Below are positions 7,553-44,382 of a stretch of 64,000 bases of DNA, one piece after another; the first letter of the stretch is position 1; each line of letters opens with the position of its first letter. The DNA comes from Anaeromassilibacillus sp. An250 (lineage in GTDB: Bacteria > Bacillota > Clostridia > Oscillospirales > Acutalibacteraceae), in the NCBI RefSeq assembly GCF_002159845.1, contig NZ_NFJK01000014.1, positions 1 to 64,000 of the forward strand. The letters are read 5' to 3'. A program made the position numbers and the translations under genes. Under the pieces are notes generated by a model. It was given only the letters and a program-made list of their open reading frames with translations, did no database searches and was not told the origin of the DNA.

Positions 7553-7798
7553 TTACACGCCCTCTGCGTCTACTTCATACACATCGTAGACCTCGTTGGG
7601 CTTGAGCTTGAGCCGGGTGGACAGGAACGCCTCGATGTCAAAGGCGTTCTTGGGGTCCGCGTCGGCGGTGTACGGGTAATTGGGGTGCTTGGTGATGTCG
7701 TACTTGTCCGAGAGGAAAGGCCGCACACCGCGCAGCTGGAGGATACACTTGCCGCCGTCCATGACGGCCAGTTCATCCTGGCTCATAAGCTCTTTGCC
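7553..7798 (-). pseudogene. virD4: VirD4-type coupling protein, piece D (C terminus)
   Basis: The frame ending at 7553 reads GKELMSQDELAVMDGGKCIL and RGVRPFLSDKYDITKHPNY, the usual C terminus of ICE T4CPs. Upstream the frame meets a stop in unrelated AT-rich DNA. The last shared bases are TCTTTGCC (7791-7798), also present at 19669-19676 next to piece C. Joining C to D there gives ...YQKLGKELMSQ..., in frame. This is therefore the final 79 residues of the split gene. Confidence 0.9.
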
Positions 7799-7835
7799 AC
7801 AATGTCAAGTGATGAATTTAAAATGGACAAAAAGT

Positions 7836-7861
7836 AACCCTCCCCAATTAAGAGGAGGGTT
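7836..7861. terminator. Hairpin near the left end of E3
   Basis: AACCCTCC (7836-7843) and GGAGGGTT (7854-7861) form an 8-bp stem with a 10-nt loop, downstream of the cargo operon. The T-run is weak. The rest of 7862-8060 is AT-rich with no gene seen. Confidence 0.4.
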
Positions 7862-8060
7862 GGTATAATATACACAGAAAATAAGAGTTTTTAAATTTCG
7901 CTTTCATAGTCTTTTCTTCAAAAGGACTACAGAAACATGAAATGGAATTGAGAAAATTTGAATGGGATTCTTTAATTCCTATACAAGTTATTAGCGACAC
8001 AAAATGTAAAATGATAGAGTTCGTATAAAAACAGAATTTTTACATCATATTAAAAGCAAA

Positions 8061-8624
8061 TTATCTGTTGCTAATTTTAATTTCCAGTTCTTCAAGTGAA
8101 TCCAGGATACATGTTATCGTGTGTTCAAATATGGGATTTTCTTTAATTTCTCCACGATACTTACCAGTAACATGCCCCAAGTATTTTTGGGCTTCTTGAT
8201 GCTTTCGTTCATTAGCATTGTATTCACTTCGATATTGATAACTACTCTCAATTCTTGCTACACCAAGTGCCCTACGGACTCTGTTCACATGTCGAATAAT
8301 TTCACCTGTTGCCTTATCAAGTTGTTCTAGAATAGATTTACTTGAGTTGATTGCAAACTTGTTACCTTTTTCATCTGACATTTTTATTTGGTAAATCTCC
8401 CAATCGATACTAAAGGTGATTTGTCCAACCAGAACATTATTTCTATCGTAATAATATAAAAATATTTTTTCTATAATATTACGTTCATATACTCCTTTTT
8501 CGATAGATTGGATACAAGCATCATCTGCACCAAAGGCGGTGGCAAATTCTGATATCGTTAATGCTAAGACTTGTAATCGACTATATACTTCAACATCTAT
8601 GCTTTCCAATTCTACATCCGCCAT
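8061..8624 (-). CDS. Unknown partner of the Rca-like ATPase (187 aa), possibly HORMA-like
   Basis: Not recognised with confidence. It has no signal peptide or membrane segment and should be cytosolic. The first 45 residues look helical. Then comes a strand pair, EKIFLYYYDRNNVLVGQITFSID, followed by helix ILEQLDKATGEIIRHVNRVRRAL and a polar tail. The strand pattern recalls bacterial HORMA proteins, which are remodelled by AAA+ ATPases of the TRIP13 type; this is a weak resemblance by eye. It overlaps the ATPase gene by 13 nt and is last in a three-gene operon, so it is probably the ATPase substrate or adaptor. Confidence 0.6.
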   Translation of the reverse strand: MADVELESIDVEVYSRLQVLALTISEFATAFGADDACIQSIEKGVYERNIIEKIFLYYYDRNNVLVGQITFSIDWEIYQIKMSDEKGNKFAINSSKSILEQLDKATGEIIRHVNRVRRALGVARIESSYQYRSEYNANERKHQEAQKYLGHVTGKYRGEIKENPIFEHTITCILDSLEELEIKISNR

Positions 8625-9487
8625 TTTTTCTCCAATTTCCTTTCTCTATCTTTTTTACGTTGTGTTGCTAATTCATCTAGTTGTGATAATGTGATTTTAT
8701 CCAAATGCATTCTTATAGATTGACTTAAGTATTTTATACTAGTTGTAGATACAGAATCAATTTGCGCAATCTGATCACTAAGCTGTTTCCTACGAAGATC
8801 ATTAATTAACTGGGCAAAAAATGCGACATTACAATCTTGATATTTTAGAAAAAATTTTTTAAAATTTCCAGTATCTCTATCTAACAGTATGGAACCATAT
8901 AATGATTTTACAGTTTCATACTTTTCATCGCTTGTTGGTTCCCAAAAGAAAATATCGGCTCTCCCATCTCTAATTAAAGCAGGGTATACTTTAGAAAAAT
9001 CATTGCCTGTTAAAATAATTGGAATTCTTTGCTTAGGAATTGCTTCTGCCAAATTCATCATATAACCAATTAGTAAGTTGGAGTTAATTGTTTTATTCAC
9101 TTTTTCGTCTGTTGTGGCATTTCCCATATGAAAGTCATCGATTAGTATGCACGGATATATGCCACTATACAACAATTCCAAAGCTTCGTTATACACTTTT
9201 TGTAAAGCTTCTCTTGATTCACCCTCTTTTTTGCCTGATAATTGGGATGCAGAAATATACTTTACAGCAATTCCTTTTTTATTGCATGCCGCAATTGTCT
9301 GCATTGTCTTCCCCTGACCAGGAGAGCCTTCAATAACTAGATATAGCGGTGGTTGAAAGAAATGATTGTCCTCTAAATAGTTCAGAATTATATGGTCAGT
9401 AACTCTTCGCATAAATCGTTCGGGAATAAACATATTATCATATGCTTTACTATACACCAAATTTTCTGCGGCACACTCATTAGTCAT
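8612..9487 (-). CDS. Rubisco-activase-like AAA+ ATPase (291 aa)
   Basis: A single AAA+ module. Walker A is EGSPGQGKT near residues 53-61, Walker B CILIDDFH near 113, sensor 1 IPIILTGNDF near 155, and the arginine region LIRDGRADIFFWEPT near 170. The run from GQGKT to RDGR-x-FW-x-PT parallels plant Rubisco activase segment by segment, a class that remodels a partner protein. No Rubisco gene is present, so the target must be something else, most simply the 187-aa product next door. The C-terminal 90 residues are helical and end in a basic tail. It overlaps both neighbours (8 and 13 nt). Confidence 0.8.
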   Translation of the reverse strand: MTNECAAENLVYSKAYDNMFIPERFMRRVTDHIILNYLEDNHFFQPPLYLVIEGSPGQGKTMQTIAACNKKGIAVKYISASQLSGKKEGESREALQKVYNEALELLYSGIYPCILIDDFHMGNATTDEKVNKTINSNLLIGYMMNLAEAIPKQRIPIILTGNDFSKVYPALIRDGRADIFFWEPTSDEKYETVKSLYGSILLDRDTGNFKKFFLKYQDCNVAFFAQLINDLRRKQLSDQIAQIDSVSTTSIKYLSQSIRMHLDKITLSQLDELATQRKKDRERKLEKKWRM

Positions 9488-9812
9488 GTTTAGTTCTCCT
9501 TGATATTTTTATGACTGTCTTGTCATTCTTTTGTATGGCAAGTCGTGTAGCTAAAGTTTTATAATATTCATCAGATAAAGGATCAAGGCTTTCGATATCT
9601 TTTATTCCACCTAGATTGCTCTTCAAACGGCTAAGCGGATCGATTTCAGGTGGGATGATGACCGTTTCTTGTTGTTTTGGCGTATCTTTTTTATCATCAC
9701 GCCTCATTTTTGCAATGAGCGCGGCAATTATTGTTCCCATTGCAGTAATAATTGCTGCAATGATTGCTGCATACTGCGGATTCTCTGATATTGTTTTCAA
9801 TACAGCTTCCAT
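9480..9812 (-). CDS. Small membrane-anchored protein of the Rca-like operon (110 aa)
   Basis: One hydrophobic helix near residues 14-35 (YAAIIAAIITAMGTIIAALIA) is followed by a basic stop-transfer stretch and a polar cytosolic tail of about 70 residues with a Pro-rich linker (ETVIIPPEIDP). First gene of the operon; it overlaps the ATPase start by 8 nt. It could anchor the complex to the membrane or be an effector. Not recognised. An IS lies 24 bp upstream of the start codon and separates it from its original upstream DNA. Confidence 0.6.
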   Translation of the reverse strand: MEAVLKTISENPQYAAIIAAIITAMGTIIAALIAKMRRDDKKDTPKQQETVIIPPEIDPLSRLKSNLGGIKDIESLDPLSDEYYKTLATRLAIQKNDKTVIKISRRTKHD

Positions 9813-9836
9813 AATTTAACCCCCCGTATTTGCCTG

Positions 9837-11715
9837 GGTAGTGTCAAAACTACCTTCATTTTTTATTGTAAAAGTTACGTTTTACCTTGATTTTTCGGAG
9901 GTTTGCAAATTAAAAGAGCATTGACCTCCCTTTTCGTGTATAATGTCATCGACCAAAACAACCTTATACGAAAGGAGCCAATGCTCATGGACATTATACT
10001 TTATCTTCTCACCATCATTCAATACCTTTATCAGATGAATTGCTGGTTATTAAATTTTATCTGCAGATACATTCCACTCAGGCAGTGGGCGTTTGATGAC
10101 TCCCATTCCCCGAAATACCAGAAATACAGGATTGATGAACTCCCTCTGATCACAGATTTCCGTCAGGACTGGACTTACAAAGAACTCATCCCTCACTTTG
10201 AAAAACGTTACGGCAAGAAGATCCGTCCCATCAAACGGCGGTCCAGATGTGACATCCCCGATGACTGTTCCTGTCCCCGTTGTCAGGCTCCGAAGCCATA
10301 TCTTTACAAGAATAACGGTTCCAAAGGTCAGCTCTCCTGTAAGGTCTGTGACGCAAAGTTCTCCCAACAGGATAACCGCTTCTCTACGATAAAGCTGCGC
10401 TGCCCTCACTGCGGGAATACCCTCGTTCCCAAAAAGGACCGCAAGTTTTTTGTCCTGCATAAGTGTGTGAACCCGAAATGCCCTTACTATCTCCACAATC
10501 TTAAAAAAGTGAATCCTGAACATCTCAATGAGGCTTACGGAAAGAATAAATACAAGCTCCATTACATCTACCGTGAATTCACCGTGGATTTCTTCCGCAT
10601 GGATTTAAACTCCCTTCCGAAAAACGCCTCTTCCCTGAAGTTCAGCCGGCATGACGCCCATGTCATGGGGCTCTGTCTGACTCTCCATGTAAATCTTGGT
10701 CTCTCCCTGCGCAAGACTTCTCAGGCTCTCAAAGATCTTTACAACATCCGGATCTCCCACCAGCAGGTCGCCAATTATGCCCGGACTGCCGCCCTCGTCA
10801 TCAAGCCTTTCGTTGACAACTATGAGTATAAGACCGGAACCACCTTTATCGCCGATGAAACCTATATCAAAGTCCGCGGGATCAAAGGATACATCTGGTT
10901 CATCATGGATGCGGTATCCCGCTCCATTCTTGGCTATCAGGTCTCTGACAACCGCGGGGTAGGTCCCTGCATCCTTGCTATGCGCATGGCTTTCCGTAAG
11001 TTGAAGCAGCTTCCGGAAAACTTCCGCTTTATCGCCGATGGCTACAGCGCCTATCCGCTTGCGGCACAGCAGTTCTTCCACCAATTCGGTGAGAACTTCC
11101 GCTTTGATATCACTCAGGTCATCGGGCTCACGAACGAGGACGAAGTCTCCAAAGAGTTCCGCCCTTTCAAACAGATGATCGAGCGGCTCAACCGTACGTT
11201 CAAAGCCTCCTACCGCATAACATGCGGCTATGACAACTATGAGGGTGCCAGCTACAATGTCGCCCTCTGGGTCGCTTATTATAACTTTCTCAGACCGCAT
11301 CAGCACAACCACTATCGTGTTCTCAATAAAGCAGAGCATCTGGAAAATGCCGACAACATGCCGGGCAAGTGGCAGCTGCTTATCTTTCTCGGGCAACAGA
11401 CCATCCTGCAGATGCAGAAGTCTCAAGCAGAAGAATAAGTCTGTTCCTAGATTCAGAGCCGGAGATAACAACTCAGCCATCCCGGAGGGATTTACCCTTG
11501 ATGGCACGCAAAAACAATGCTACAATGCTGTGATCCAGACGGAGAAACCAGCCTGTTCCTGAGTTCTTCGCCGTCGATAAGGCACTCAGAGCATTGCTTT
11601 TGTGTGCTGTCAAGGGTGGCGTAAGCTGCCATCAAACATCATATCTGCAATTTTCAAGGTTCAATCTGAGCCTATTTCTTAGACTTCATTTTTTCATAAC
11701 TCATTTGACACTACC
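9837..11715 (+). mobile_element. DDE insertion sequence with 8-bp target duplication
   Basis: The ends are GGTAGTGTCAAA (9837-9848) and its perfect inverse TTTGACACTACC (11704-11715). Both sides are flanked by the direct repeat TTTGCCTG (9829-9836 and 11716-11723), an 8-bp target duplication. Length is 1,879 bp with one intact transposase gene. Perfect ends and duplication point to recent insertion. About 265 bp after the gene are non-coding. Confidence 0.95.
9987..11438 (+). CDS. DDE transposase with N-terminal zinc ribbons (IS6-like rve fold)
   Basis: A 483-aa protein from the ATG at 9987, chosen because AAAGGAG sits 10 nt upstream; an ATG 6 nt earlier is too close. Two zinc-ribbon-like pairs (CPRCQAPK...CKVCDAKF and CPHCGNTL...CVNPKCPYY) lie near residues 95-185. 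Catalytic residues are likely in FIADETYIKVRGIKGY, FIADGYSAYPLA and KQMIERLNRTFK (D, D, E). The 8-bp target duplication fits IS6-type elements. The gene is intact. Confidence 0.9.
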   Translation: MDIILYLLTIIQYLYQMNCWLLNFICRYIPLRQWAFDDSHSPKYQKYRIDELPLITDFRQDWTYKELIPHFEKRYGKKIRPIKRRSRCDIPDDCSCPRCQAPKPYLYKNNGSKGQLSCKVCDAKFSQQDNRFSTIKLRCPHCGNTLVPKKDRKFFVLHKCVNPKCPYYLHNLKKVNPEHLNEAYGKNKYKLHYIYREFTVDFFRMDLNSLPKNASSLKFSRHDAHVMGLCLTLHVNLGLSLRKTSQALKDLYNIRISHQQVANYARTAALVIKPFVDNYEYKTGTTFIADETYIKVRGIKGYIWFIMDAVSRSILGYQVSDNRGVGPCILAMRMAFRKLKQLPENFRFIADGYSAYPLAAQQFFHQFGENFRFDITQVIGLTNEDEVSKEFRPFKQMIERLNRTFKASYRITCGYDNYEGASYNVALWVAYYNFLRPHQHNHYRVLNKAEHLENADNMPGKWQLLIFLGQQTILQMQKSQAEE

Positions 11716-11788
11716 TTTGCCTGATATATGAAGAGAGAACTGCTGAATCACTCTTTGGTATAAACCGATATTTTAAGGAAGGTAAATT
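11439..11788. other. IS right arm and E3 spacer, no gene
   Basis: 11439-11715 is the non-coding right arm of the IS. 11716-11788 is the original DNA between the E3 recombinase stop and the cargo operon. Before the IS arrived, the operon start would have lain about 90 bp from the recombinase stop on the same strand. No clear promoter was found in the remaining 73 bp. Confidence 0.6.
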
Positions 11789-13432
11789 CTATATTGATAT
11801 TTCCCCCACAAAATTATAAACAATCCTGACTTCCTGCGTTTTTTGCCCATCAACTTTCTTGACTTCACCCACTAAAATCCGGCTAATAAGACGGTTCAAA
11901 ATGGTTTCGTCCAACTCCTGAATGGTGGCATACTGTCGAATCTCCCGGATAAAGGTGCGGACTTCACTTTCCTGAGCATCAGTCTGCTGACGCATTCGCA
12001 ACAGCTCCTGCAAACGGCGCTGATTTTCTTCCTGTTCCTGCTCCATGGCGGCGGTCAACTTCACAAACCGCTGCTCAGAGATCACGCCTTTGGCCTTATC
12101 GGTATAAAGGCTCAGAAACATATCGTCAATTTGCCGGTTTCTGGCTTCCAGGCGCTCACGCTCTTTCTGCATCTCGGAAGCATCCACCATATATCGGCGC
12201 TCCATCCGGCTGCTCAACCGTTGATAAAAGGCATCTGCATCTTTGAGCGCCATCGCTGCCAGTTCCTGAATATCCTTCAGAACGAGATTATACAAATCCC
12301 TGGCTTCGATTTTATGGCTGGTGCAGGCGTTTTTGCCCAGCCGGTTGTAGGTCTGGCAGATATAATACGCCTTGTCAATTGGTTCCCGCATCTCGCCGGT
12401 AAAGCGGTTTTTGCCAGTTCTGCCGACCTTTTCATACCGCACCTGCATGGATTTCCCACAGGTGGCACAGTAGATAATACCGTGGAACAAGTTGTAGAAG
12501 GGGCAGGCATTGCCTTTCATAATAGGTGGCCTGCGATCTACGATTGCCTGCACCTGTTCCCATTCCTCCGGTGTCACAATCGCTTCATGGCAGCCCTCAA
12601 TGATTTCCCAGTCCTCACGGGGAATGATGTCATAGGTGTTGGAGCGAATCCCTTTCTGGTGCGTCCTGCAAACCAGATGAGCGCCCTTATAAAAAGGGTT
12701 ACGCAGGATATGGCTGATTCTTGCGCCGCCCCACGCATAGTAGTTGACATCGCAAGCGGTATTTCCTTTTACTCTGGTGATGGGAACCTTGTCCTCCATC
12801 AGCTGCTTGGCAATCCGCATACAGCCCCAGCCATCCAGTGCCAGGTCATAGATTTTGCGAATCACTGGAGCAGTTTCCGGGTCGAGGATCAAATGCCCCC
12901 GATCCTCCGGGTCACGCATCAGCCCCAGGGGAGGCTGTCCGCCACAGAACTTTCCCTGCCGGGAACGGGTCATACGCCCCGCCAGCACTTTCTTGGAAAT
13001 ATCCCGGCTATACATATCATTCAGGATATTCTTGAACGGCGTGATGTCCATTTCCTGACGGGTCAAACTGTCCACACCATCGGTAATGGCGATATAACGG
13101 ACATTGTGTTTGGGGAAGAAGATTTCAATATAGCTTCCAGCTTCGATATAATTTCTTCCCAGTCTGGACAGGTCTTTGGTAATGACACAACCGATTTTAC
13201 CGGTCTCAATATCGGCAATCATACGCTGAAAAGCTGGACGATTGAAATTGCGGCCGGTGTAACCATCGTCCACATAATACTCATACTGGAACATCCCATT
13301 TTTCTCGGCAAATTCCTTGAGCATAAGTTTCTGATTGCTGATACTCATACTCTCGTTATCGCCGCCATCGTCCAGAGAAATACGGCAATAGAGGGCTGTG
13401 ATTTTCTGATTGACTTGTTTTTTCCTGCTCAT
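11789..13432 (-). CDS. Large serine recombinase of E3
   Basis: 547 aa. The N-terminal resolvase domain starts ITALYCRISLDDGGDNESMSI, with the catalytic serine in CRIS and the arginine-rich site near CVITKDLSRLGRNY. A recombinase domain and a zinc ribbon (IYCATCGKSM ... CQTYNRLGKNACTSHKI) follow, then a coiled coil near residues 390-480. It is full length for TnpX/TndX-type large recombinases, which excise and integrate elements using a 2-bp core and no accessory protein for integration. GGAG precedes the ATG. It probably moves E3. The three-gene cargo operon lies downstream on the same strand. Confidence 0.93.
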   Translation of the reverse strand: MSRKKQVNQKITALYCRISLDDGGDNESMSISNQKLMLKEFAEKNGMFQYEYYVDDGYTGRNFNRPAFQRMIADIETGKIGCVITKDLSRLGRNYIEAGSYIEIFFPKHNVRYIAITDGVDSLTRQEMDITPFKNILNDMYSRDISKKVLAGRMTRSRQGKFCGGQPPLGLMRDPEDRGHLILDPETAPVIRKIYDLALDGWGCMRIAKQLMEDKVPITRVKGNTACDVNYYAWGGARISHILRNPFYKGAHLVCRTHQKGIRSNTYDIIPREDWEIIEGCHEAIVTPEEWEQVQAIVDRRPPIMKGNACPFYNLFHGIIYCATCGKSMQVRYEKVGRTGKNRFTGEMREPIDKAYYICQTYNRLGKNACTSHKIEARDLYNLVLKDIQELAAMALKDADAFYQRLSSRMERRYMVDASEMQKERERLEARNRQIDDMFLSLYTDKAKGVISEQRFVKLTAAMEQEQEENQRRLQELLRMRQQTDAQESEVRTFIREIRQYATIQELDETILNRLISRILVGEVKKVDGQKTQEVRIVYNFVGEISI

Positions 13433-13446
13433 AGCAATCTCCTTCT

Positions 13447-13498
13447 ATGAACAGGGACACGATATACATATTATACCATGCCCCTGTTTTTCCTTCAA
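13447..13498 (-). promoter_or_regulatory. Promoter of the E3 recombinase with a palindromic operator
   Basis: Minus strand: -35 TTGAAG (13493-13498), 17-bp spacer, -10 TATAAT (13470-13475). A 7-bp inverted repeat, AACAGGG/CCCTGTT (13450-13456 and 13482-13488), straddles the -10, a plausible repressor site. The start codon is at 13432. Confidence 0.65.
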
Positions 13499-13507
13499 CC
13501 AATTCCC

Positions 13508-13672
13508 TCAGCTTGCCTTGCGTTCCAGCCATTCTTCAAAGTGTTCGCAAGTTTGCCGTTCAATGAGCTGTTCAAAGGCTTCCTGCATGGTTTTATCACC
13601 TGAAAACTCCCGTATCACGATAAACTTCACTTTTTTGCTCAGCTTGTTTTCTTGCTTTTGGGTTTTCTCCAT
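13508..13672 (-). CDS. Small hypothetical protein (54 aa) before the recombinase
   Basis: The frame begins MEKTQKQENKLSKKVKFIVI, with GGAGG 7 nt before the ATG, and ends LERKAS. It is basic at the N terminus and acidic and helical at the C terminus. Small proteins like this often precede the recombinase in such elements. Function unknown. The 267 bp upstream, to the VapE stop at 13940, holds no gene that I can support. Confidence 0.6.
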   Translation of the reverse strand: MEKTQKQENKLSKKVKFIVIREFSGDKTMQEAFEQLIERQTCEHFEEWLERKAS

Positions 13673-13939
13673 AGGCTACCTCCATAGATCAGAAAGGCCA
13701 GGCAAAGGGAGCCTGCAACGAAGTCCGGCAACAGACCTCGAAAAACCTGCAACCTATCGTCTGACCATCGTTTCTTACTTTTCAAATTTTCTTGTGAAAT
13801 CTCGTTGCTTTCGTTGTCAGAGAACAAATACCCGCCCAAAAGTCTTGCTTTACGGGTATTTATCGTATCTACACCCCCACTTTTGCGGCAACAAAGTCAG
13901 CAACCAGCCGACAACCTACTGGGCAACAAACCCCGTAAA

Positions 13940-15325
13940 TCAGGCAATCCACTCCTTTGGCAGCTCCAGTTGACGGACTTCTTCCTCGCTCAGCTCTACA
14001 AATCCACCTTCGTTGTCGGGCGGTTCGTTGTCGGAAATCTCCCGTTCCCAGCCCCGCTGCCGACCATAGCCCGCAAACATTCGGGGATTGGAGAAGGGCT
14101 TCCAGCCCGTCACCACTGTGTTCATGATCTCGTTGATGTTGTGCAGCTGCCAACGCTTCGGCTCATCAATGGCGTGTCCCAACGCTTCCTTGAATAGCTG
14201 CTTGGAGCAGACCACATTGCCGGTGTAGTGTTCCAGAAAGCCCTGGATTTGCCCGGCCTCGGTATCCTCCGGCATGAAGTCCTTCTGAACCTCCACCAGC
14301 TGCTTCTGAATCTCCTTTGAAAACTTCATGGAATACTCTCCACTGCGGTAAATGGTCATAGCCTCCGCCCATACCTGCAACAGATATTCCCTGGAAGCGG
14401 CTTCGTCCTCCAAAATGTGAACCTCCGCTTTCTCCGGGTCAATCATCACTGGCAGGAACCGGCGGTTTCCGGCCCGGTCAAGGGGTAGGAAATCCAGCGT
14501 GTTGGAGGAACCACCGAACACACACTGCCGCAGACGGTCTTTGGGCTGGGTCTCATAGGGGGTGCGGTAGGTTTCCTTTTGGCGACTGATAAAGGAGCGG
14601 ATCTCCTCAATGCTCTTGGCGTTGCTGGTGGCCAGCATCTCAGACATCTCGATGATCCAGTGGCCTTGCAACTTGGCAAACACCTTGTCATCATCCAGCT
14701 TTTTCAGGTCATCAGAGAACCACTCATCATGTATAGCCAGGAAGCGAAAGAAGGTAGACTTTCCGGCTCCCTGGCCGCCCACCAGACAGAGCAGTTCCTC
14801 ATACTTGGAACCAGGATGGAACACCCGGCGGATGGCTCCCAACAGAAAGTGTTTGAGCATTTCTTCCACATAGTTGCCCTCATCCGCCCCCAGAAAGTGA
14901 TGCAGGCAGGAGCGTATCCGGGGTATGCCGTCCCAAACCAAGCCATTCAACACATCCTGAATGGGGTGATAGCAATTTTCGTTTGCCACGATAGAGAGCG
15001 CCGCCATCAGCTTCTTTTCACTGGTCAGGCAATAGTTCTGCTCAAAGTAAAGGAGCAGATATTTGACATCGGTATCGGTCAAGGCACTGGTGCTTCTGCG
15101 CCAGCCCAGATCCCGCACAATGTCCACACGGTCGGTCAGCAGATTCAGCCGGATTGCTCTCCGTAAAAGCGGATCTTGGCAAAACACCGTGCGGCAATTT
15201 CCAATGGTATTGGCCGGTTGTCCTTTTTCCGTCGTGGAAAGGCTTTCCCGCACTTCAGCAACGGTCAATTCCTCACTTTCGGCCTGCCAAGTGACAGGCA
15301 CTAAACTCTGAGTTTCGCTGTTCAA
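13940..15325 (-). CDS. VapE/VirE-type P-loop helicase (P4-like)
   Basis: 461 aa from a TTG at 15325 with GAGGAGGTG 7 nt upstream. The conserved core includes Walker A CLVGGQGAGKSTFFR, then LQGHWIIEMSEM (Walker B-like), FGGSSNTLDFLPLDRAGNRRFLPV and a C-terminal winged region. VapE proteins are superfamily 3-like helicases of phages and islands and support element replication. Many relatives carry an N-terminal primase domain that is missing here, so this one may act with a host primase. A hairpin separates it from the mob gene upstream. Confidence 0.88.
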   Translation of the reverse strand: MNSETQSLVPVTWQAESEELTVAEVRESLSTTEKGQPANTIGNCRTVFCQDPLLRRAIRLNLLTDRVDIVRDLGWRRSTSALTDTDVKYLLLYFEQNYCLTSEKKLMAALSIVANENCYHPIQDVLNGLVWDGIPRIRSCLHHFLGADEGNYVEEMLKHFLLGAIRRVFHPGSKYEELLCLVGGQGAGKSTFFRFLAIHDEWFSDDLKKLDDDKVFAKLQGHWIIEMSEMLATSNAKSIEEIRSFISRQKETYRTPYETQPKDRLRQCVFGGSSNTLDFLPLDRAGNRRFLPVMIDPEKAEVHILEDEAASREYLLQVWAEAMTIYRSGEYSMKFSKEIQKQLVEVQKDFMPEDTEAGQIQGFLEHYTGNVVCSKQLFKEALGHAIDEPKRWQLHNINEIMNTVVTGWKPFSNPRMFAGYGRQRGWEREISDNEPPDNEGGFVELSEEEVRQLELPKEWIA

Positions 15326-15347
15326 TGTTTCTCACCTCCTCAAGGAA

Positions 15348-15382
15348 AAGGCACCTGATTTGTATGCAAAATCAGATGCCTT
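15348..15382 (-). terminator. Terminator between the Pre/Mob and VapE genes
   Basis: The minus-strand stem AAGGCATCTGATTT / AAATCAGGTGCCTT has one T-G wobble and is followed by TTTT. It overlaps the mob stop codon. Confidence 0.65.
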
Positions 15383-35692: not shown

Positions 35693-35698
35693 ACATCT

Positions 35699-36417: not shown

Positions 36418-36511
36418 TGAGGCGTTTTGTCAAGTGCTTTTTTGAGTTATTGACGCAAATGATAGTGAAAGCGCGAAAGTGCAAAGTGCAAAGGGTCTGC
36501 GTTTTGCACTT

Positions 36512-38416
36512 TCAGCTTGCGGTTTCGGGCGGCTGCTTCTTTTTGAGGAAGTTGTACCATTGACCGCCGACGCGCCTTGCGCCCAAAATGCCGCCCATAT
36601 TGCGCTTGGCGTTCTGTACTGTCCTCTCGGATATTCCGGCTTCGGCTGCGGCTTTTACAATGTCCTCGCTGGCAAGCTCTTTCCCGTCTGCAAGTAAATC
36701 CAGTATCAGCCGTTCCGCCTGTTCGGTCTTGGTGGCGGTATTCCCGCCCGCGCCGGATAGAAGTTCCTCGGCGGTTATGTCGTATTCGCCTATCCATGAA
36801 AATCCTGTTTCCGGGTCAAGGCAAAAGGCAACGGGCTTTCCCTCCGGCGCAAGGGAAGATTTGTCATGGACGATTACCCGCACATTCGGCTCACGCTTCA
36901 CGCGCCCGATTAAAAGCACGCTCCTTGCCGCCGCCCGGAAGTCGATAGAGCCTAAGCCCCGGTACGCGCTTTGTCCTCCGGCGGCTTTGTTCAAGTGTCC
37001 GATAAGGATAACGGCGCAGCCGGTACGCTCGGCAACTTCGGCAAGCCTGCGGAAAATGGGGCGTACCTCGTTTGCCTTGTTCATGTCGGCTTTCTCGCCC
37101 ATGTACGCCTGTATGGGGTCAAGGATAATCAGCCGCGCCCCATTCTGTACGATTGCCTTTTCTATGCGCTCGTCGGAGAGGGTAAGCTCCCGCTTGGCTT
37201 CGTCAATGACAAGTACGCGGTCAAGGTCTGCGGCGGCTTCTATCAACCGGGGCTTGACGGTATCGCCCAAACCGTCCTCGGCGGTCTGGTAAATCACTTG
37301 GAACGGCGGCAGGGGCTTCATTCCCGGCAGCGTTCCCCCTGTGGTACAGGCGGCGGCAAGGCGTAGGGCAAAGGTGGTCTTTCCCTCGCCGGGGTTGCCC
37401 TGTACGATAGTCACTTTCCCAAAGGGGATATACGGCTCCCATAGCCATTCAACGGCTTGCGTGTCAACCTCGCTCATGCGGATAATCTCAACGGTTTCTT
37501 CCTGTGGCGGCGGCTCTTTCAAGCCGTAAACGGCTTCCCGCAAATACTTCCCGTCTGTGATTTCCCCCTTGCGCTGCAATACCTCGTTCCAGTCTTTGAA
37601 AAGCGGCACAAGGCGGTGGACGGTCAAGCCCTCCGTCGTGAGGTCTACAAGGCGGCTGCAAGCGTCGTTCCCGGCTTGGTCGCTGTCAAGGCAGAGGTAA
37701 ACGGTCTTGATGTTCGGACGGTCAGAGAGGAAACGCAACAGGGCTTTTTCCCCCACGCCGCCCAATGACAGGTAGCTTTGTTTCTGCCATTCCTTTTTGA
37801 ACAGGCAGAGAAAAGATAACAGGTCAATAGGGGCTTCAAAGACGAAAAGCCGTTCGCCCTCGCCCCGGTAGCAGAAATTAAATGCCTTGTCGCTGCCTTT
37901 CACATCAAGCCGGAAGTTTCCGGCTGTGCCGCGCTGGTGGGCGTATCTCGGTACGCCGTCCTCGTCCCGCCCCACAAATACGGCGTTGTGGTGGGCGGCT
38001 TCCTCGTAAATATCCCCGCTGGCAAGAAAAAAGCCCGTCACATCTTCGTCAATGCGGCGGGCTGCTGTGAGGTAGTTCCTCGCTGTTCGGTTGTCGGTGT
38101 TCCGGGGCGGTAGCCGGAAGTCGGAGAGGGGCGCGGGGCAAGGTCTGTCCGGCGGCGGGGCGGCTCCTTTCTCGCCTGTGAGAAATTCAACGGCTTCGGT
38201 AAAGCTCTTGCCGAAAAACTCCATGACAAAATCAACGGGGCCGCCGCCTTTGCTCTGGCTGTGCCTGTACCACTTGTTCCCCCGGATTGTCAGGCTGTCG
38301 TGCCGCTTCCAGCGGTATTCCTGTCCGGCGCGGGTAAGCTGCTCGCCCTGTGATTGCAGGAACGAAACAAGGTCGGCTTGGTTTGCCCGGTCTATCTGGT
38401 CTTGGGTATAATACAA
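36512..38416 (-). CDS. DUF3991/TOPRIM primase fused to RepA-like helicase
   Basis: 634 aa from a TTG at 38416 (GGAG 9 nt upstream). The N terminus has the DUF3991 region (RHDSLTIRGNKWYRHSQSKGGGPVDFVMEF), then a TOPRIM part (KTVYLCLDSDQAGNDA). The second half is a RepA/AAA_25 ATPase: Walker A VQGNPGEGKTTFALR, Walker B RLIILDPIQAYMG, then HLNKAAGG and a winged C terminus. Family role: primer synthesis and unwinding for replication of the element. Confidence 0.88.
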   Translation of the reverse strand: MYYTQDQIDRANQADLVSFLQSQGEQLTRAGQEYRWKRHDSLTIRGNKWYRHSQSKGGGPVDFVMEFFGKSFTEAVEFLTGEKGAAPPPDRPCPAPLSDFRLPPRNTDNRTARNYLTAARRIDEDVTGFFLASGDIYEEAAHHNAVFVGRDEDGVPRYAHQRGTAGNFRLDVKGSDKAFNFCYRGEGERLFVFEAPIDLLSFLCLFKKEWQKQSYLSLGGVGEKALLRFLSDRPNIKTVYLCLDSDQAGNDACSRLVDLTTEGLTVHRLVPLFKDWNEVLQRKGEITDGKYLREAVYGLKEPPPQEETVEIIRMSEVDTQAVEWLWEPYIPFGKVTIVQGNPGEGKTTFALRLAAACTTGGTLPGMKPLPPFQVIYQTAEDGLGDTVKPRLIEAAADLDRVLVIDEAKRELTLSDERIEKAIVQNGARLIILDPIQAYMGEKADMNKANEVRPIFRRLAEVAERTGCAVILIGHLNKAAGGQSAYRGLGSIDFRAAARSVLLIGRVKREPNVRVIVHDKSSLAPEGKPVAFCLDPETGFSWIGEYDITAEELLSGAGGNTATKTEQAERLILDLLADGKELASEDIVKAAAEAGISERTVQNAKRNMGGILGARRVGGQWYNFLKKKQPPETAS

Positions 38417-38431
38417 AAAAATCAACTCCTT

Positions 38432-39931
38432 TCATCGGTCTAAGTCGTGTCGCTTGGTGCGGCTTTGCTCCGGCTGCTCGGCGCGGAGTGCGACATCAAC
38501 ACACTTGCGTATCTTCTGAAGCTCGGCTACTTCGGCGCAGGCAGCTTTCAGTTTTGCATAGTCCTCGCTGTCCTGCGCCTTTAGGGTGGCGTATTCCTGT
38601 TCCCATTCCGCGATAGGCAGGCTCTTTGTTCCTTTCGGCAGCTTCGCATGGAGATAGCGGCTTGCCGCTTCCCATAGGGCAAGCTCGGCGCGGTGGGCTT
38701 CCTCGTACTTGTCGCGTTTGCTCGTCCAGCCGTTTTTCAGCGTCTTTAGCTGGTCGCGGACGGGCTTATACTTGGTGTAGTTCTTCCCGCACTCAATCAG
38801 CTTTTGAAGCTCTTTCATTCGCTGCTCGGCGGTTTTCATTCCCGCCCGGATAGAATAGGCGTTATCACTGACAGAGGAAAGGGCTGCGTCCAGCTCCGCA
38901 AGGGTGGAAATGCCATGCTCGGATAAATAGTTGACTGCCGCCGATACGGTTTTCAGTTCGTCGGCTACGTGCTGCCTTTGCCAACTCTGCGAATACTTCC
39001 GGCTCTTTTCCCTCTGAATGCTTAGATATTTCATCAAGAGGTTTGCAAGTCCGGGGGATTGCGGGGGCTGCTCCGGGGCGGTTTCCCTTTCGGCAAGCAG
39101 TCCGGCAAGCCATTCTTTGAGCTTGCCGATCTGCGCCCGGATTTCCCGGATAAGACGGTTTGCTTTCTGGATATTCCGGTTAAGCTCGCCTTTCTCGGTG
39201 GTTACGCCTTTCTTCTCCATTTGGCAAGCCGCCACGCCCATGTGGACGGTGGGTATCTCGTCAATGCCGCGCTCGGCGTTGCTGCGGTGGTCGATACGCT
39301 CCGTACTTCCGGCGCGTTCAAGGTAGGCATTTGAAATGTCCGCCCACGCCTTGCGCCACAAGAGGGCGTTGCCCTTGTCGTTCCAGCCGGTAAGGTCTAC
39401 TTTGTGCGTCTTGTATCTGCCGCTTGGTAAGCGTATGCGCTCGCCGTTTTCGTCAAGGTCATATTCCTTTTTGGATTTCGCCGCCCATGCGCCGCGCTCG
39501 TCAAGGGGGCGCATGGTAAGCATGATATGACAATGGGGATTTCCGTCGCCCTTGTCGTGTATGCAGAAGTCGGCGCACATTCCTTTGGAAACAAATTGAG
39601 AGGAACAGTATTCCCGGACAAGCCGTATCTGTTCCTCTCGTGATAATTCTATGGGGAGTGCCGCGTCAATCTCCCTTGCAAGCTGGGCGTTTCCGGCTTT
39701 CTCGTAAAGCTCCACACTGTTCCACAAAGTAGCGCGGTCAGAGAAAGAGGGCGGGGCGTGGGGCGGCAACAGGATTTCCGTATGGACTACACCGCCTTTA
39801 TGGGTGTAGTCATGGGTTTCTCCGTCCCACTCGTTTGTGATTTTCTCGCCGCTTCGGTAAGCGGCTGCGGCAACGGCAGATTTGCCTTTTCCCCGGCTGA
39901 TTATGCTGATGTTACAATGGTAAATGGCTAT
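38432..39931 (-). CDS. mobA: MobA/MobL (MobQ) relaxase of E1, likely ATA start
   Basis: About 499 aa. Motifs: AIYHCNISIISRGKGKSAVAAAAYRSG at the N terminus and CADFCIHDKGDGNPHCHIML, the metal-binding His pair; long coiled-coil C terminus. After the ribosome site GGAGGTG, ATA at 39931 falls at the family's normal start position. The in-frame GTG at 39940 is inside the ribosome site itself. The E2 relaxase shows the same ATA. The oriT lies about 225 bp upstream. Confidence 0.88.
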   Translation of the reverse strand: MAIYHCNISIISRGKGKSAVAAAAYRSGEKITNEWDGETHDYTHKGGVVHTEILLPPHAPPSFSDRATLWNSVELYEKAGNAQLAREIDAALPIELSREEQIRLVREYCSSQFVSKGMCADFCIHDKGDGNPHCHIMLTMRPLDERGAWAAKSKKEYDLDENGERIRLPSGRYKTHKVDLTGWNDKGNALLWRKAWADISNAYLERAGSTERIDHRSNAERGIDEIPTVHMGVAACQMEKKGVTTEKGELNRNIQKANRLIREIRAQIGKLKEWLAGLLAERETAPEQPPQSPGLANLLMKYLSIQREKSRKYSQSWQRQHVADELKTVSAAVNYLSEHGISTLAELDAALSSVSDNAYSIRAGMKTAEQRMKELQKLIECGKNYTKYKPVRDQLKTLKNGWTSKRDKYEEAHRAELALWEAASRYLHAKLPKGTKSLPIAEWEQEYATLKAQDSEDYAKLKAACAEVAELQKIRKCVDVALRAEQPEQSRTKRHDLDR

Positions 39932-40134
39932 GGGTATCACCTCCGTTAGAGCGTCATTCAAACTTGTCGGAAGTGAACAGCTTGCAGCGCAAGGTGTTCG
40001 CTTCCGGCAAGTACACAAAGGGGTAGACAGCGCAAGCTGTCGCAGGGGAAGTGTAGCTTCCCCTGTCTGCGGCAAAGCCGCCATATCGGAGCGTGGGGAA
40101 AGTTCCCTGTGCGGAGATAAGCCCTCGGCAGAGC

Positions 40135-40180
40135 GCACACGCCCGTAAGGGTGTATAAGTGCGCCCTTAGTGCCTAAGGG
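40135..40180. other. oriT: oriT of E1 (R1162/RSF1010-like nic region)
   Basis: ACACGCCCGTAAGGGTGT forms the upstream arm pair; TAAGTGCGCCCT (40156-40167) is the nic core; CCCTTAGTGCCTAAGGG follows. Same plan as the E2 oriT, with different flanking sequence. Confidence 0.8.
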
Positions 40181-40182
40181 AT

Positions 40183-40479
40183 TTATCCGGCGTTCCCGCC
40201 CTCGGCTCGTTTTTTCAAAAACTCATGCGCTGGCTCGCTCGTCAAGGCAACCCTGAGAAGCGCGGCGGCTTCCTCGTCGGTCATGGTCTTGGCTTCCGGC
40301 ACAATGCTTTCAAAGACCGCGCCCCGGACGATAAGGCGGTGGCTGCGTGTCCGGCGTTCTTCCTGTGACAGCTTTTGCCGCAGCACCTTTTCCCGGTTTT
40401 CGTACTGCTGGATTTTCTTCTTGCTGTCCTCAATCTCGGCGGTCAATTCCTCGCGGGTTTTCTCTCTCGGTTTTGTCAT
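40183..40479 (-). CDS. DUF3847-family small protein (E1)
   Basis: 98 aa from the ATG at 40479 (GAAAGGAG upstream). Coiled-coil N-terminal half (EELTAEIEDSKKKIQQYENREKVLRQKLSQEERRTRSHRLIVRGAVFE). Ends next to oriT, like its E2 relative, which supports a relaxosome-linked role. Confidence 0.75.
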   Translation of the reverse strand: MTKPREKTREELTAEIEDSKKKIQQYENREKVLRQKLSQEERRTRSHRLIVRGAVFESIVPEAKTMTDEEAAALLRVALTSEPAHEFLKKRAEGGNAG

Positions 40480-40516
40480 AGCTGGTCGCTCCTTTCTGCC
40501 TGTCGGCATAGAAAAA

Positions 40517-40541
40517 GGACAGTCGATTTTCTCGGCTGTCC
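40517..40541 (-). terminator. Short terminator-like hairpin
   Basis: GGACAG (40517-40522) and CTGTCC (40536-40541), followed on the minus strand by TTTTT. It lies between the lipoprotein and DUF3847 genes. Confidence 0.5.
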
Positions 40542-40624
40542 CCTGTGGGTGGTTTATTTAATTTTACTGTGTTTTTCTTGCTAATCTGGAAGTCGCATAT
40601 TGTATTCTATGTCGGCATTTTGGC

Positions 40625-41353
40625 TTATTTATCAAACGAAATATCAATATCCCCATCTTGTGTTGAAATTGATATTGTTTTATCTCCGCCAACCTTAGAA
40701 TTGAGATTGCTATTACCACCTACGGTTTCGGTAACAATACTATAATCTGCCATGTTGCCACTAAATGTTCCTATAACATTCCCATTTTTCGTTTCACAAG
40801 CTAACTCTTGCATTATAGCGGTGTTGTCAAAAGAAATATTACCATCAAGTGTGTTTATTTGCAAATGGTTGATTGTCGCACTTCCAAAAGCTATATTTCC
40901 ATTATTAGTAGTTATTGTTATATCCTGAATATCCACATTTCCGATATTTATATCACCATCCAGTGTTTCAATACACAAATTGCCGGTGTAATTATCGGGA
41001 AGCGATAACACTAATTTAACATTTTTATAAGAGTCATCTTCAGAATATCTATCCCCTATATTAGATTGAGATTGCTTTGTAATCGTCAACTCTCCATTTT
41101 CTTCTGTTATCTCATAATCTTCACTTCCATCATCTGCTCGATAATATGTGACAGAAACAGTTTTACTATCTGAACTGACTATCTGAATGGGAGTATTTTT
41201 CTCATCTATCGTAACGCTTTCAATCTCGTCCGAAGCAGAATATGTATTTTCTTCATAATGAGGTGCCGTTCCTCTTAAATGAATATTACTACATCCGCAA
41301 AATAGGTATGTCATACTTAATAACAACAAAAAGGCAAGGAACTTTTTCATCAT
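40625..41353 (-). CDS. DUF4097-type beta-repeat lipoprotein
   Basis: 242 aa. The signal peptide ends in lipobox TYLFCGCSN. The body is a regular beta-repeat with recurring Gly-Asp/Asn turns (LDGDINIGNVDIQDITITTNNGNIAFGSATINHLQINTLDGNISF), typical of DUF4097 adhesin-like beta-helices. Much more AT-rich than the mobilization genes around it, so it is E1 cargo from another source. Surface-anchored; function unknown. Confidence 0.8.
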   Translation of the reverse strand: MMKKFLAFLLLLSMTYLFCGCSNIHLRGTAPHYEENTYSASDEIESVTIDEKNTPIQIVSSDSKTVSVTYYRADDGSEDYEITEENGELTITKQSQSNIGDRYSEDDSYKNVKLVLSLPDNYTGNLCIETLDGDINIGNVDIQDITITTNNGNIAFGSATINHLQINTLDGNISFDNTAIMQELACETKNGNVIGTFSGNMADYSIVTETVGGNSNLNSKVGGDKTISISTQDGDIDISFDK

Positions 41354-41441
41354 TTATTCTCCTTTTAAATTTTCAGTTTGCCGCTCGGTTTACTTTGGCT
41401 TGTTTTTTTAAGTATAGCACAAGACTATGAACAAATCTACA

Positions 41442-41738
41442 TCATTTTAGCCTGTCGGCGGCGTTGTTCTCTCTGGCATACTGCCGCGCTGCTTCCCGCC
41501 GTTCCTCGCTGTATGGGGCGGTCAGACGGAAAGAGAAGCGTCCTTTCTCAATATCAAACTCCATGCAGCCCGTTTCCGGGTCTGCGTCGGTCTGCTGGCA
41601 ATTCGCCGGATAACGGCGGCTGTATGCAAGCAGCCGCTTCTTTAAGGCGGTGTTGTGGGTGCGGATATGGATAAGAGGGTCTTTCTCGTCAAACCAAATG
41701 TCGGTGGTCTTTTCCTGCTTGGTAAGCCCTGTTTTCAT
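41442..41738 (-). CDS. Small IME accessory protein (98 aa)
   Basis: MKTGLTKQEKTTDIWFDEKD..., GGAG before the ATG. Shares PYSEERREAARQYARE and the LKKRLLAYSRRYPANC-like middle with the E3 protein at 17036. Conserved in clostridial elements, function unknown. Confidence 0.7.
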   Translation of the reverse strand: MKTGLTKQEKTTDIWFDEKDPLIHIRTHNTALKKRLLAYSRRYPANCQQTDADPETGCMEFDIEKGRFSFRLTAPYSEERREAARQYARENNAADRLK

Positions 41739-41872
41739 AAACTCTCCTTTCTGCGCCCCTGTTACGCAATAGGGGCATTTTTCGGGTGTTTTCCCCGGCT
41801 CTTGACTTGGGAAAAACGGCGTTTTTGACGATAAAAACCGCCCGGACGGGGAATGTATCGTCGGGGCGGCTG

Positions 41873-42088
41873 TTATCGCAAGGTTTCCGTTTTTTCCGGC
41901 TCTTGACCGTCAGACGCGGAAAAGCGCAAACTGTCGGCAAGTATCAGTTTTAGCAGCTTGTCGCGGAAAGTTTCTGTGCCGCTGCGGTTAAAAAACAATT
42001 CCGCAACAATGGTCTGCCCGTTTCCCTGTGTCGTGATAACTCCGTCCGGCTTGGTCGGCGGGATAGGCGTTCCTTTCTTTTCTGTCAA
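41873..42088 (-). CDS. tnpW: TnpW-family transposon protein (E1)
   Basis: About 71 aa from a TTG at 42088 (GGAG 6 nt upstream). Core TIVAELFFNRSGTETFRDKLLKLIL matches the TnpW plan seen in E2 (VRVHFSQTSTETMSDKIKRML). Precedes the recombinase-distal genes of E1. Confidence 0.7.
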   Translation of the reverse strand: MTEKKGTPIPPTKPDGVITTQGNGQTIVAELFFNRSGTETFRDKLLKLILADSLRFSASDGQEPEKTETLR

Positions 42089-42166
42089 TGGCAACTCCTT
42101 TCTCCGGGCGCGAAAAAGGGATTTCCCGTATCTGGAAAATCCCTCTCTGCTGTCGGCTATTCTGTT

Positions 42167-44017
42167 TTACTGTGCGGGGGCTGCGGCGGCTGCCTGCGCC
42201 TTTTTCCTCGCCCTGTATTCCCGCGCTTTCATGCGGTCATATTCCCGCTGCTTTTCAAGGTTACGCGCCCGGTACTCCCTTGAATACGCTCTGTGATAAG
42301 CGCGGCTCCTTTCCTTTTTTGCTTCCTCGATTTCCTCCCGCATTTGCCGGATTTCCTGCTCCGTCGGCTCGGCAAGCTGTGTCACTTCGTTTTCAAACCT
42401 GCCGATGTGGTTGAAATATATCCCGATGTGCTGAATGGCGTATCTCGCCCTTTTCTGGTCGCGCTCATGCACTTCAATCCGGCTGATAAACTCGTTGAGA
42501 ATTGCGGGGGTAAGGTCGGTAAAGGCGGCATAGCGTTCCGTCAGCTTCAAAAACTTCTGCGCCCGTCCTCCCGCATTTTCAAAAGCGGATAGCTGTTCTT
42601 GGAGTGCAGCAAGCTCCGCTTTCAGCGTGTAGTATTCTTCTGAATACTTCTGCGACATTTGCTCATAGCGGTCTTGCGGGATAGTACCCAGCGCGTTGTC
42701 CTCATAAAGTTTATTCAGTACCTTGTCAATCTGTTCAAGGCGCGTCGTGATTTGCGGGATACGCTTCTGCTGTTTCTTTGTCTTGTCGGTCTGCTGCATG
42801 GCAAGGCTCTTTTTTACTAAGGCTTCAAACTCTGCCCGATTGCTGATAGAGTATTCCGCGATTTTTTTCAGCACGTCCGCGACGGTCTGCATAAGCAGAT
42901 CCGCGTCGATGATGTGCGGGGAATTGCATTTAGGATTTTTGGCTTTCCCTTTATGGTACTCGCTGCAATAGGCAATATGCCGCTTGCCGCCGTTTCGGTA
43001 ATCTATGCGAATGTGCATTTTTGAACCGCAGTCTTTACAGAAAAGCAAGCCGGCAAGAGGGTGGATTTCTCCGTCCCCGTTGGGGCGTTTGACAGGTGCG
43101 TTTTCCAAAATCCGCTGCACATTTTCAAAGTCTGTGCGGTCGATAATCGGCTCATGCACATTTTCTGTGATGTGCCACTGGCTTCTGTCTACATAGTGGT
43201 TTCGCTTATCCCGGAAATGCTTTGTAGTCTTGAAATTGACTACATCGCCGCAATACTCCTGCCGCGTGAGGATATGGGTCAGCGTGGCTTTGTTCCACTT
43301 ATAGCGGTTATCCTCGTTGAGCGTCTTATTTTTACAAGTTCCCCGCCCCCGGTCTTTCATGTAGAAAGTGGGGGTCGGGATTTGCTCTTGTGTCAGATAT
43401 ACGGCGATTTGGTTTCGGTTTTTCCCGTCCAGAAACAGACGAAAAATAAGGCGTACAACCTCGGCGGCTTCCTCGTCGATTATCCAAAAATCCTTGCTGT
43501 CGGGGTCTTTGACATAGCCGTAAGGGGCTTCGGTGGCAATCGGCTTTCCACTCATGCCTTTGGTCTTAATGCCCGTTTTCACTTTCTTGCTTATGTCCTT
43601 TGCGTACCACTCCGACATGATGTTGATAAAGGGCGCAAACTCCAATGTGTCGGGCTTCTCGCTGTCTATGCCGTTGTTTACCGCGATAAAGCGCACATTG
43701 TTCCGTCTGAATATCTCCATAGCGTTTCCAACTTGGAGATAGTCGCGCCCCCAGCGGGTCAGGTCTTTCATAATGCACACGCCGATTTTGCCGCTTTCCA
43801 CATCTTCAATCATGCGGGAGTAGGCGGAACGGTCAAAAAATCTGCCGCTTTCGTCGTCGTCGATGTAGTGCCGGATATTGGTTAGGTGCTGCCCTCTGGC
43901 GTAGTTCTCTAAAAAAATCTTCTGGTTTTGTATGCTGTTGCTCTCGCCGCCGTCCCTGTCCTCGTCCCCTACGGAAAGGCGGGAGTAAAGGGCTGTGATT
44001 TTGCTGTAATTAGTCAT
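42167..44017 (-). CDS. Large serine recombinase of E1
   Basis: 616 aa from the ATG at 44017 (GGAGG 8 nt upstream); longer frames upstream run into virD4 piece A and are spurious. Catalytic serine region ITALYSRLSVGDEDRDGGESNSI, CIMKDLTRWGRDYLQV, zinc ribbon LFCKDCGSKM, coiled coil, and a very basic Arg/Tyr/Ala tail. It ends 56 bp from the crossover bases at 44074, so it is the probable integrase of E1. A 7-bp inverted repeat TGCATAA/TTATGCA (44019-44071) lies in that gap. Confidence 0.94.
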   Translation of the reverse strand: MTNYSKITALYSRLSVGDEDRDGGESNSIQNQKIFLENYARGQHLTNIRHYIDDDESGRFFDRSAYSRMIEDVESGKIGVCIMKDLTRWGRDYLQVGNAMEIFRRNNVRFIAVNNGIDSEKPDTLEFAPFINIMSEWYAKDISKKVKTGIKTKGMSGKPIATEAPYGYVKDPDSKDFWIIDEEAAEVVRLIFRLFLDGKNRNQIAVYLTQEQIPTPTFYMKDRGRGTCKNKTLNEDNRYKWNKATLTHILTRQEYCGDVVNFKTTKHFRDKRNHYVDRSQWHITENVHEPIIDRTDFENVQRILENAPVKRPNGDGEIHPLAGLLFCKDCGSKMHIRIDYRNGGKRHIAYCSEYHKGKAKNPKCNSPHIIDADLLMQTVADVLKKIAEYSISNRAEFEALVKKSLAMQQTDKTKKQQKRIPQITTRLEQIDKVLNKLYEDNALGTIPQDRYEQMSQKYSEEYYTLKAELAALQEQLSAFENAGGRAQKFLKLTERYAAFTDLTPAILNEFISRIEVHERDQKRARYAIQHIGIYFNHIGRFENEVTQLAEPTEQEIRQMREEIEEAKKERSRAYHRAYSREYRARNLEKQREYDRMKAREYRARKKAQAAAAAPAQ

Positions 44018-44073
44018 GTGCATAACCTCCTGTGCGTCCATATAGGTTTCCTTTACACTTAAAATTATGCACT

Positions 44074-44382
44074 CCAGCGGGCGCTGCCATACTCCATACC
44101 GTGCCGGTACTTCTTGGCGTTCTTGCTTTTGAGATACACGGCCAATCGCAGGCCAGCGCCGCAGCACAGCCCCACCAGCAGGTCCAAAGGGTGCAGGCTG
44201 GGCCACCAGCTGGCCAGCGCCACCGGCAGCGTGGAGAAGAACGAAAGCATTTTTGCCGAAGCGTCCGCACCCACGGCCATCCGCCATCCTTCACCGAAGT
44301 TGGTTGCGAACAGCCCCATCAGGATATAGGGCATATTCAGCAAAAGGAGCTTTTTGATGTCAAGTTGCTTTTTCATCTTCAT
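44074..44382 (-). pseudogene. virD4: VirD4-type coupling protein, piece A (N terminus)
   Basis: 103 residues from the ATG at 44382 (GGAG upstream, start overlapping the PcfB stop). Two membrane-spanning stretches (LLLLNMPYILMGLFATNF and PLDLLVGLCCGAGLRLAVYL) match the T4CP membrane anchor, and the piece ends KKYRHGMEYGSARW. The frame then runs three codons into E1 and stops. With pieces B, C and D removed from their insertions, the gene is 1,836 nt. Confidence 0.92.

Follow-up and report, generated by a model that had tools for sequence, protein, structure and literature searches.

The window analysed here is a 64,000-nucleotide stretch of contig NZ_NFJK01000014.1 from Anaeromassilibacillus sp. 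An250 (positions 1–64,000, beginning at the first base of the contig). It contains virD4, the gene for a type IV coupling protein (T4CP), in four minus-strand pieces across 7553–44382, with three inserts between them. Piece 1 (44074–44382) comprises codons 1–103, piece 2 (35699–36417) codons 103–341 and piece 3 (19669–20245) codons 342–533, while piece 4 (7553–7798) continues to the stop codon. The best explanation, which we regard as probable, is that a single virD4 has taken up three different elements of the Tn4451/Tn6104 type, predicted to be mobilizable, each at its own point, with site-bound recombinase clades and a promoter predicted to form in the excised circle.

The four pieces were used as separate queries. 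All four match the intact virD4 of Faecalibacterium gallinarum (L010) and Claveliimonas monacensis (L011) at 100% nucleotide identity, abutting and collinear, and some of them are found, likewise at 100%, in four further loci (L009, L013, L026 and L050), among them piece 1 in L013. On the intact counterpart gene the pieces occupy 9695–10003, 10001–10717, 10718–11290 and 11285–11527 with nothing missing, and the overlaps between adjoining pieces consist of the shared bases only (3, 4 and 8). The coordinates, order, strand and shared bases proposed by the initial annotation are thereby confirmed, and the insert sizes it gave (7,659, 15,457 and 11,878 bp, counting one repeat copy each) follow from the coordinates. 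Its length of 612 codons holds if the stop is counted, the intact L010 protein having 611 residues plus stop. Residues lacking or duplicated at the joints, or pieces of mixed T4CP lineages, had been named as evidence against a single gene; the pieces proved collinear and identical to the intact genes instead. Because all four match one intact gene at 100%, the pieces, judged by their sequence, derive from one T4CP lineage.

Insert 3 (7.7 kb; 36418–44073, minus strand) lies at site 1, between pieces 1 and 2, with TGG shared, and both of its ends match those of 10 other site 1 elements. It encodes the large serine recombinase Rec3 (42167–44017, minus; start at 44017 set by homologues) with Resolvase, Recombinase, Zn_ribbon_recom and DUF4368 domains, a MobA/MobL (MobQ) relaxase (38432–40138, minus; PF03389, 320.6 bits; MobQ above cut-off), a Toprim/AAA primase-helicase-like protein (36512–38425, minus; PF13155, PF13481) and a DUF4097 protein. 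Insert 2 (15.5 kb; 20246–35698, minus), at site 2 between pieces 2 and 3, has a Tn6104-like gene order. Its recombinase Rec2 (33726–35606, minus; by domain match) is accompanied by TnpV (33346–33717, minus; PF14198), a second MobA/MobL (MobQ) relaxase (24049–25647, minus; PF03389, 320.9 bits), a two-component pair, an ABC transporter, sigma-like proteins, a YafQ toxin and a replisome organiser. Insert 1 (7799–19668, minus), at site 3 between pieces 3 and 4, shares its ends and gene set with elements on another An250 contig (C56) and in genomes G293, G353 and G161. It encodes TnpV (19190–19567, minus; PF14198), an XRE-type helix-turn-helix (HTH) regulator (17983–18831, plus; PF01381), a VapE-like helicase of a phage DNA helicase family (13940–15325, minus; PF05272) and the recombinase Rec1 (11789–13432, minus; by domain match). 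A DDE transposase gene with an IS240-like domain (9903–11438, plus) also lies within insert 1 and is probably an insertion sequence. Two minus-strand open reading frames (ORFs) of insert 1, 10605–11507 and 17998–18870, were rejected as genes because the opposite strand encodes the transposase and the HTH regulator, respectively.

As the initial annotation held, every insert encodes a large serine recombinase of its own. All three carry Resolvase, Recombinase, zinc ribbon and DUF4368 domains (TnpX type), and their pairwise identity is 32–43%. The accompanying claim of a relaxase in every insert stands for inserts 2 and 3 and is probable for insert 1. There, the ORF at 15381–16610 (minus) had no family match of its own in profile searches, and its structure model was poor (mean predicted local distance difference test score 67), gave no PDB match at E 0.001 and was not used for identification. 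It contains the motif HLDEGTPHIH, most residues of which are invariant across 40 aligned rows, and two homologues with 59–63% identity to it (P0125 and P0184) both exceed the Mob_Pre cut-off; on the strength of the motif and these homologues it is probably a divergent MobV-like relaxase. The tnpV gene is present in inserts 1 and 2 and was not found in the insert 3-like elements of L026, L027 and L044. No family of type IV secretion systems was detected among the 38 insert ORFs scanned with Pfam, some short ORFs lying outside the scan, and a PADLOC scan of 10 ORFs without an assigned family returned only two weak matches, both of one short ORF. The bases shared at the insert ends are very short. 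Together, the inserts appear to be integrative and mobilizable elements (IMEs) of the Tn4451/Tn6104 type, for which mobilisation is predicted.

Recombinase clades and their sites in virD4

Relatives of the three recombinases were sought in 394 genomes of the order, sampled evenly from a larger group. Relatives of Rec3 at 87% identity or more occur in 12 other places, and in all 12 the recombinase directly follows virD4 piece 1. For Rec2, 30 of the 37 places listed were examined, and in 20 of these, the window's own included, the end of piece 2 directly precedes the recombinase. Five of the six other Rec1 relatives with at least 86% identity are at site 3 (An250 contig C56, G293, G353, G161 and G035); the sixth, in G221, was not assigned to a site. 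More distant Rec1 relatives, at 42–44% (L109–L111, L113 and L114), had no virD4 in the sequence examined. Rec2-type elements outside virD4 were observed on An250 contig C21 (L146, L161, L162) and on contig C45 of genome G082 (L195); these may be secondary sites used by a clade that is otherwise bound to one site.

In a tree of 64 recombinases, the 14 site 1 rows form a single branch (100/100), as do the seven site 3 rows (100/96), and 26 site 2 rows fall in a branch of 28 with two non-virD4 elements (95/91). The label site 2 is also carried by two rows that stand for other recombinases inside the L186 insert. With these included, the site labels change six times on the tree against a shuffle mean of 31.2, a low count that the kinship of the rows favours in any case. 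The L186 insert itself (9392–13801 of that locus) is a site 2 insert whose near end is of the Rec2 type but whose two serine recombinases are different, distantly related ones, an arrangement reminiscent of Tn6105. The target genes diverge to as little as 43% amino-acid identity in piece 1 (L175). On these comparisons, each recombinase clade is tied to one point of virD4 across genomes, with few exceptions. Since many genomes have each clade at one particular point of virD4, the suggestion of the initial annotation that virD4 is a preferred target of these elements is supported.

Occupancy was counted in the best 80 of 586 relatives found with piece 2. Site 1 was occupied in 6, empty in 73 and unknown in 1; site 2 was occupied in 12, empty in 67 and unknown in 1; and site 3 was occupied in 1, empty in 57 and unknown in 22. 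L050, whose contig starts inside piece 2, was not counted as occupied at site 1. Sites 1 and 2 are both occupied in L044, L078, L186 and L188. The proposed search for the same virD4 at different occupancy did recover copies with no, one or three inserts at 99.6–100% nucleotide identity. L010 and L011 have none, L009 and L026 have site 1 only, L013 has site 2 occupied with site 3 outside the view, and the window has all three sites filled. G293 carries a triple within one contig, at sites 4, 2 and 3, with site 1 outside the view. Site 4 lies at the TDPKG motif in piece 2 (codon 73/74); only its far junction was in view, in G293, on An250 contig C19 and in G203 (L118, L138, L156).

Of eight related virD4 genes in the An250 genome, five are interrupted (C6, C56, the second C19 gene, C36 and C45), and the other three show no break in the part in view (the first C19 gene, C18 from codon 78, and C75). 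Contig C8 has an additional piece 1 together with Rec3, possibly the missing half of the gene on C36 or on C45. Other breaks in virD4 were observed in piece 3 (L027, L037, L075) and piece 2 (L120, L148, L192), with ends resembling those of group II introns (GTGCG start).

Element ends, leaders and a predicted circle promoter

The ends were compared across the 26 elements for which both junctions could be placed: 11 belong to site 1, 10 to site 2 and 5 to site 3. Elements with one junction only were excluded, as was the site 3 element of G035 (L151), in which about 1.5 kb of other DNA at one end displaces the near end. All 26 carry a −35 box at the far end, TTGACA in 23 and TTGACT in 3, and a −10-like box at the near end, which reads CATAAT (11), TATGCT (9), TAGAAT (1) or CATACT (5). 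The search for the −10-like box permitted spacings of 16 and 18 nt besides 17, and the far-end and near-end distances sum to 17 nt in 26 of 26. In the window, the TTGACA of insert 3 (36428–36433, minus) lies 10 nt before piece 2 and sums to 17 nt with the near-end CATAAT. That of insert 2 (20253–20258, minus) lies 10 nt before the first full codon of piece 3 and pairs in the same way with TATGCT, and that of insert 1 (7803–7808, minus) lies 4 nt before the first codon of piece 4 and pairs with CATACT. In the integrated state, the best −35 match at 16–18 nt agrees at just 1–3 of 6 positions. Because the two boxes stand at opposite ends with distances that sum to 17 nt, a promoter is predicted to form solely in the excised circle. 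The hexamer is a feature common to the ends of the roughly four recombinase lineages represented.

Both rec3 and rec2 run in the same direction as virD4, starting 56 and 94 nt, respectively, past the last codon of the preceding virD4 piece. Between the junction and rec2 lies a conserved hairpin (35626–35690, limits approximate; minus). Across 17 aligned leaders, 98% of cells are paired, 4 pairs have changed on both sides, and the covariation score was reached in none of 500 shuffles. The virD4 frame continues through the recombinase in 6 of 28 site 2 loci (L023, L131, L132, L133, L134 and L188), where a VirD4–recombinase fusion protein is possible. That read-through transcripts might mask the ribosome site was also considered and rejected: 30 leaders (11 at site 1, 14 at site 2, 5 at site 3) gave no consistent difference between read-through and circle starts.

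Host element, proposed mechanism and alternatives

The virD4 gene belongs to an integrative and conjugative element (ICE), whose genes upstream of virD4 encode DUF3801 (44379–44879, minus; PF12687), directly adjacent, DUF6017 and ParB. This flank, from 44074 to 49322–49691, is common to L010, L011 and L013 at 97–99%. We infer that the right end of the ICE lies at about 49313, since the ORF that follows the gene for ribosomal protein L13 is as long as rpsI and stands where rpsI would be expected; only L13 of this pair has a family match, and rpsI is a reading from length and position. At 49313–50278 this rpsI-like ORF stands beside rplM, and the host ICE seems to stop at its 3′ end. The 3′ end of rpsI is a type of ICE site familiar from streptococci. 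Downstream of the split virD4 come an IS110 element and then a whole-length gene for a TetM/W/O/S-type tetracycline resistance ribosomal protection protein (3026–4945; 1284.7 bits against a cut-off of 1100), an arrangement also found in L050 (98%). A methyltransferase ORF was noted after the TetM/W/O/S-type gene. On this side the ICE is in view as far as the first base of the contig. Scans of the window for transfer RNA (tRNA) genes and with Rfam gave no matches.

In the mechanism that we propose, each recombinase would excise its own element as a circle, in which the −35 box of one end joins the −10 box of the other to make a promoter. This promoter is predicted to drive the element's own recombinase in inserts 2 and 3 and the TnpV-led genes in insert 1. 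The circle could then be mobilised through a coupling protein, whether from this conjugative element or from a different one present in the cell, and re-enter a virD4 with an empty site. While integrated, rec2 and rec3 would have no promoter of their own and would be expressed by low read-through from the virD4 operon, the step of which we are least sure. If they are read from that operon, induction of the host element would favour exit.

Several observations weigh against this explanation. The 26 elements represent only about four recombinase lineages and hence few independent cases. Two of the 30 Rec2 loci (L123, L146) are elsewhere than in virD4, another 8 are partial or at most 55% identical with no virD4 within the 1.5 kb examined, and Rec1 relatives at 69–70% (L154, L155) had no virD4 in the sequence examined. 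Site 1 is only at the 30th percentile of amino-acid conservation among 54 intact genes, and so not a conserved stretch; sites 2, 4 and 3 are at the 98th, 95th and 80th. With percentiles spanning 98th to 30th, conservation explains only part of the site choice. As to read-through, the virD4 frame stops ahead of the recombinase (inside it in L144) in 22 of the 28 site 2 loci, the window included, and the stable hairpin before rec2 might damp transcription from virD4. The two stretches scanned near rec2 and rec3 held no promoter-like sites, against 0.3 and 0.4 expected by chance, an expectation so low that their absence is weak evidence.

The collinear pieces with open frames, and the presence of three serine recombinases in one gene, would also fit programmed intervening elements, kept as a switch whose departure follows a fixed programme, either of the cell or of the ICE. 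In the skin/sigK and comK-prophage switches, a serine-recombinase element lies inside a gene that regains its function once the element leaves, in sporulation or infection programmes. The initial annotation had drawn the likeness to skin/sigK, which we reject: the same gene carries no, one or three inserts, most relatives of virD4 lack an insert (67 of 80 at site 2), the gene is intact in many genomes, and the inserts encode relaxases, or a probable relaxase, and replication genes. Unlike those switches, the window's inserts carry transfer genes and give no sign of a programme. Nor is there a sign of long-term upkeep, and the identity of the pieces to intact copies suggests that the insertions are recent. 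Given polymorphic occupancy of the same gene and the relaxases, the inserts look like mobile passengers rather than fixed intervening elements, and a programmed origin is very improbable. We give similarly little credence to an assembly artefact, in which contigs of several virD4 copies were stitched at repeated element ends. The An250 genome is in 76 contigs, it has at least eight related virD4 genes, and related elements lie at or beside the ends of contigs C8, C36 and C45. Misassembly among these copies is nonetheless unlikely because all pieces match one intact gene at 100%, whereas the other related copies in An250 reach only 41–97% per piece at the protein level; moreover, each insert has proper matching ends, and the triple in G293 is contained in one contig.

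A third alternative is a dead-end pile-up, with virD4 a landing place harmless to the cell, the host ICE crippled and the inserts one-way passengers that rarely leave. Excision of Tn6105 and Tn6106 was not found, and Tn6103 did not transfer, in the experiments described in PMC3158075. In Streptococcus suis, where IMEs occupy traG of Tn1549-type ICEs, the account in PMC7168690 records many decayed IMEs and truncated target genes in ICEs. Several relatives in our own set have broken recombinases, with stops or partial matches. In the window, by contrast, all three recombinases, two relaxases and the element ends are complete, the virD4 pieces are unchanged relative to intact copies, and near-identical virD4 genes bear differing sets of inserts. 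A dead end thus seems unlikely to us.

The explanation by site-bound, mobilizable elements can be carried further, tentatively and with less expectation that it will prove right. virD4 may act as a docking station with at least four points, each reserved for one recombinase lineage, whose passengers are silent save for read-through while docked and self-driven in the circle. Three docked passengers would then form a triple lock on the host ICE: the DNA pump would be made only in cells that all three have left, and the passengers would decide when the vehicle moves. IMEs need a coupling protein for movement, yet these break a gene that encodes one. With the triple split at strict sites and near-identical virD4 genes bearing 0, 1 or 3 inserts, excision on demand, an idea already in print, can be put to a direct test. 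If it is true, the conjugative elements that bring genes from one member of the Clostridia to another have their transfer controlled by their passengers, and the split promoter would be a simple reason for the passengers being quiet when docked and active when free.

Comparison with known systems

Tn4451, with its recombinase TnpX, is reportedly alike in having a recombinase promoter solely in the excised circle; Lyras and Rood are said to have described, in 2000, that the tnpX promoter is formed or brought in only there. Tn4451 differs in its target specificity, described as low (PMC5704250). A parallel in arrangement is Tn6103 of Clostridioides difficile R20291, an ICE that, like the window, has three serine-recombinase elements (Tn6104, Tn6105 and Tn6106) in its transfer region (PMC3158075). 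Compared by description, it differs in that two elements are in ORF 1743 and one in ORF 1776 as annotated (PMC3158075). The gene order of insert 2 is that described for Tn6104, whose excision and empty target were demonstrated by polymerase chain reaction, and insert 1 resembles Tn6106, with TnpV at one end and the recombinase towards the opposite end; Tn6105 is different in having two recombinases (PMC3158075). Among the open-licence papers listed, none was seen to report a virD4 with three elements, ORF 1743 and ORF 1776 of Tn6103 being a possible earlier case.

The elements IME_Sco1050_traG_site1 and _site2 of Streptococcus constellatus are alike in being serine IMEs at specific sites of traG/virD4 with integrase families that follow the site. 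They are unlike the window in numbering two per gene rather than three and in belonging to streptococcal, Tn5252-type ICEs, and the relevant passages describe no split promoter (PMC5357655, PMC5704250). A state-dependent switch of the integrase promoter is described for ICEKp1, which is similar in its read-through from the host when integrated and in the stem-loops before int, and dissimilar in using a tyrosine integrase and a tRNA gene as target (PMC13023037). The idea of a gene switch of the skin/comK kind is cited in PMC5357655. What has already been published is that serine IMEs occupy traG/virD4, maff2 and snf2 of Tn5252-type ICEs, with up to two per traG, and the proposal that they excise on induction of conjugation (PMC5357655, PMC5704250). 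New here are the three elements per gene, the fidelity of recombinase clade to site at three sites along with a fourth site, and the predicted split-promoter rule.

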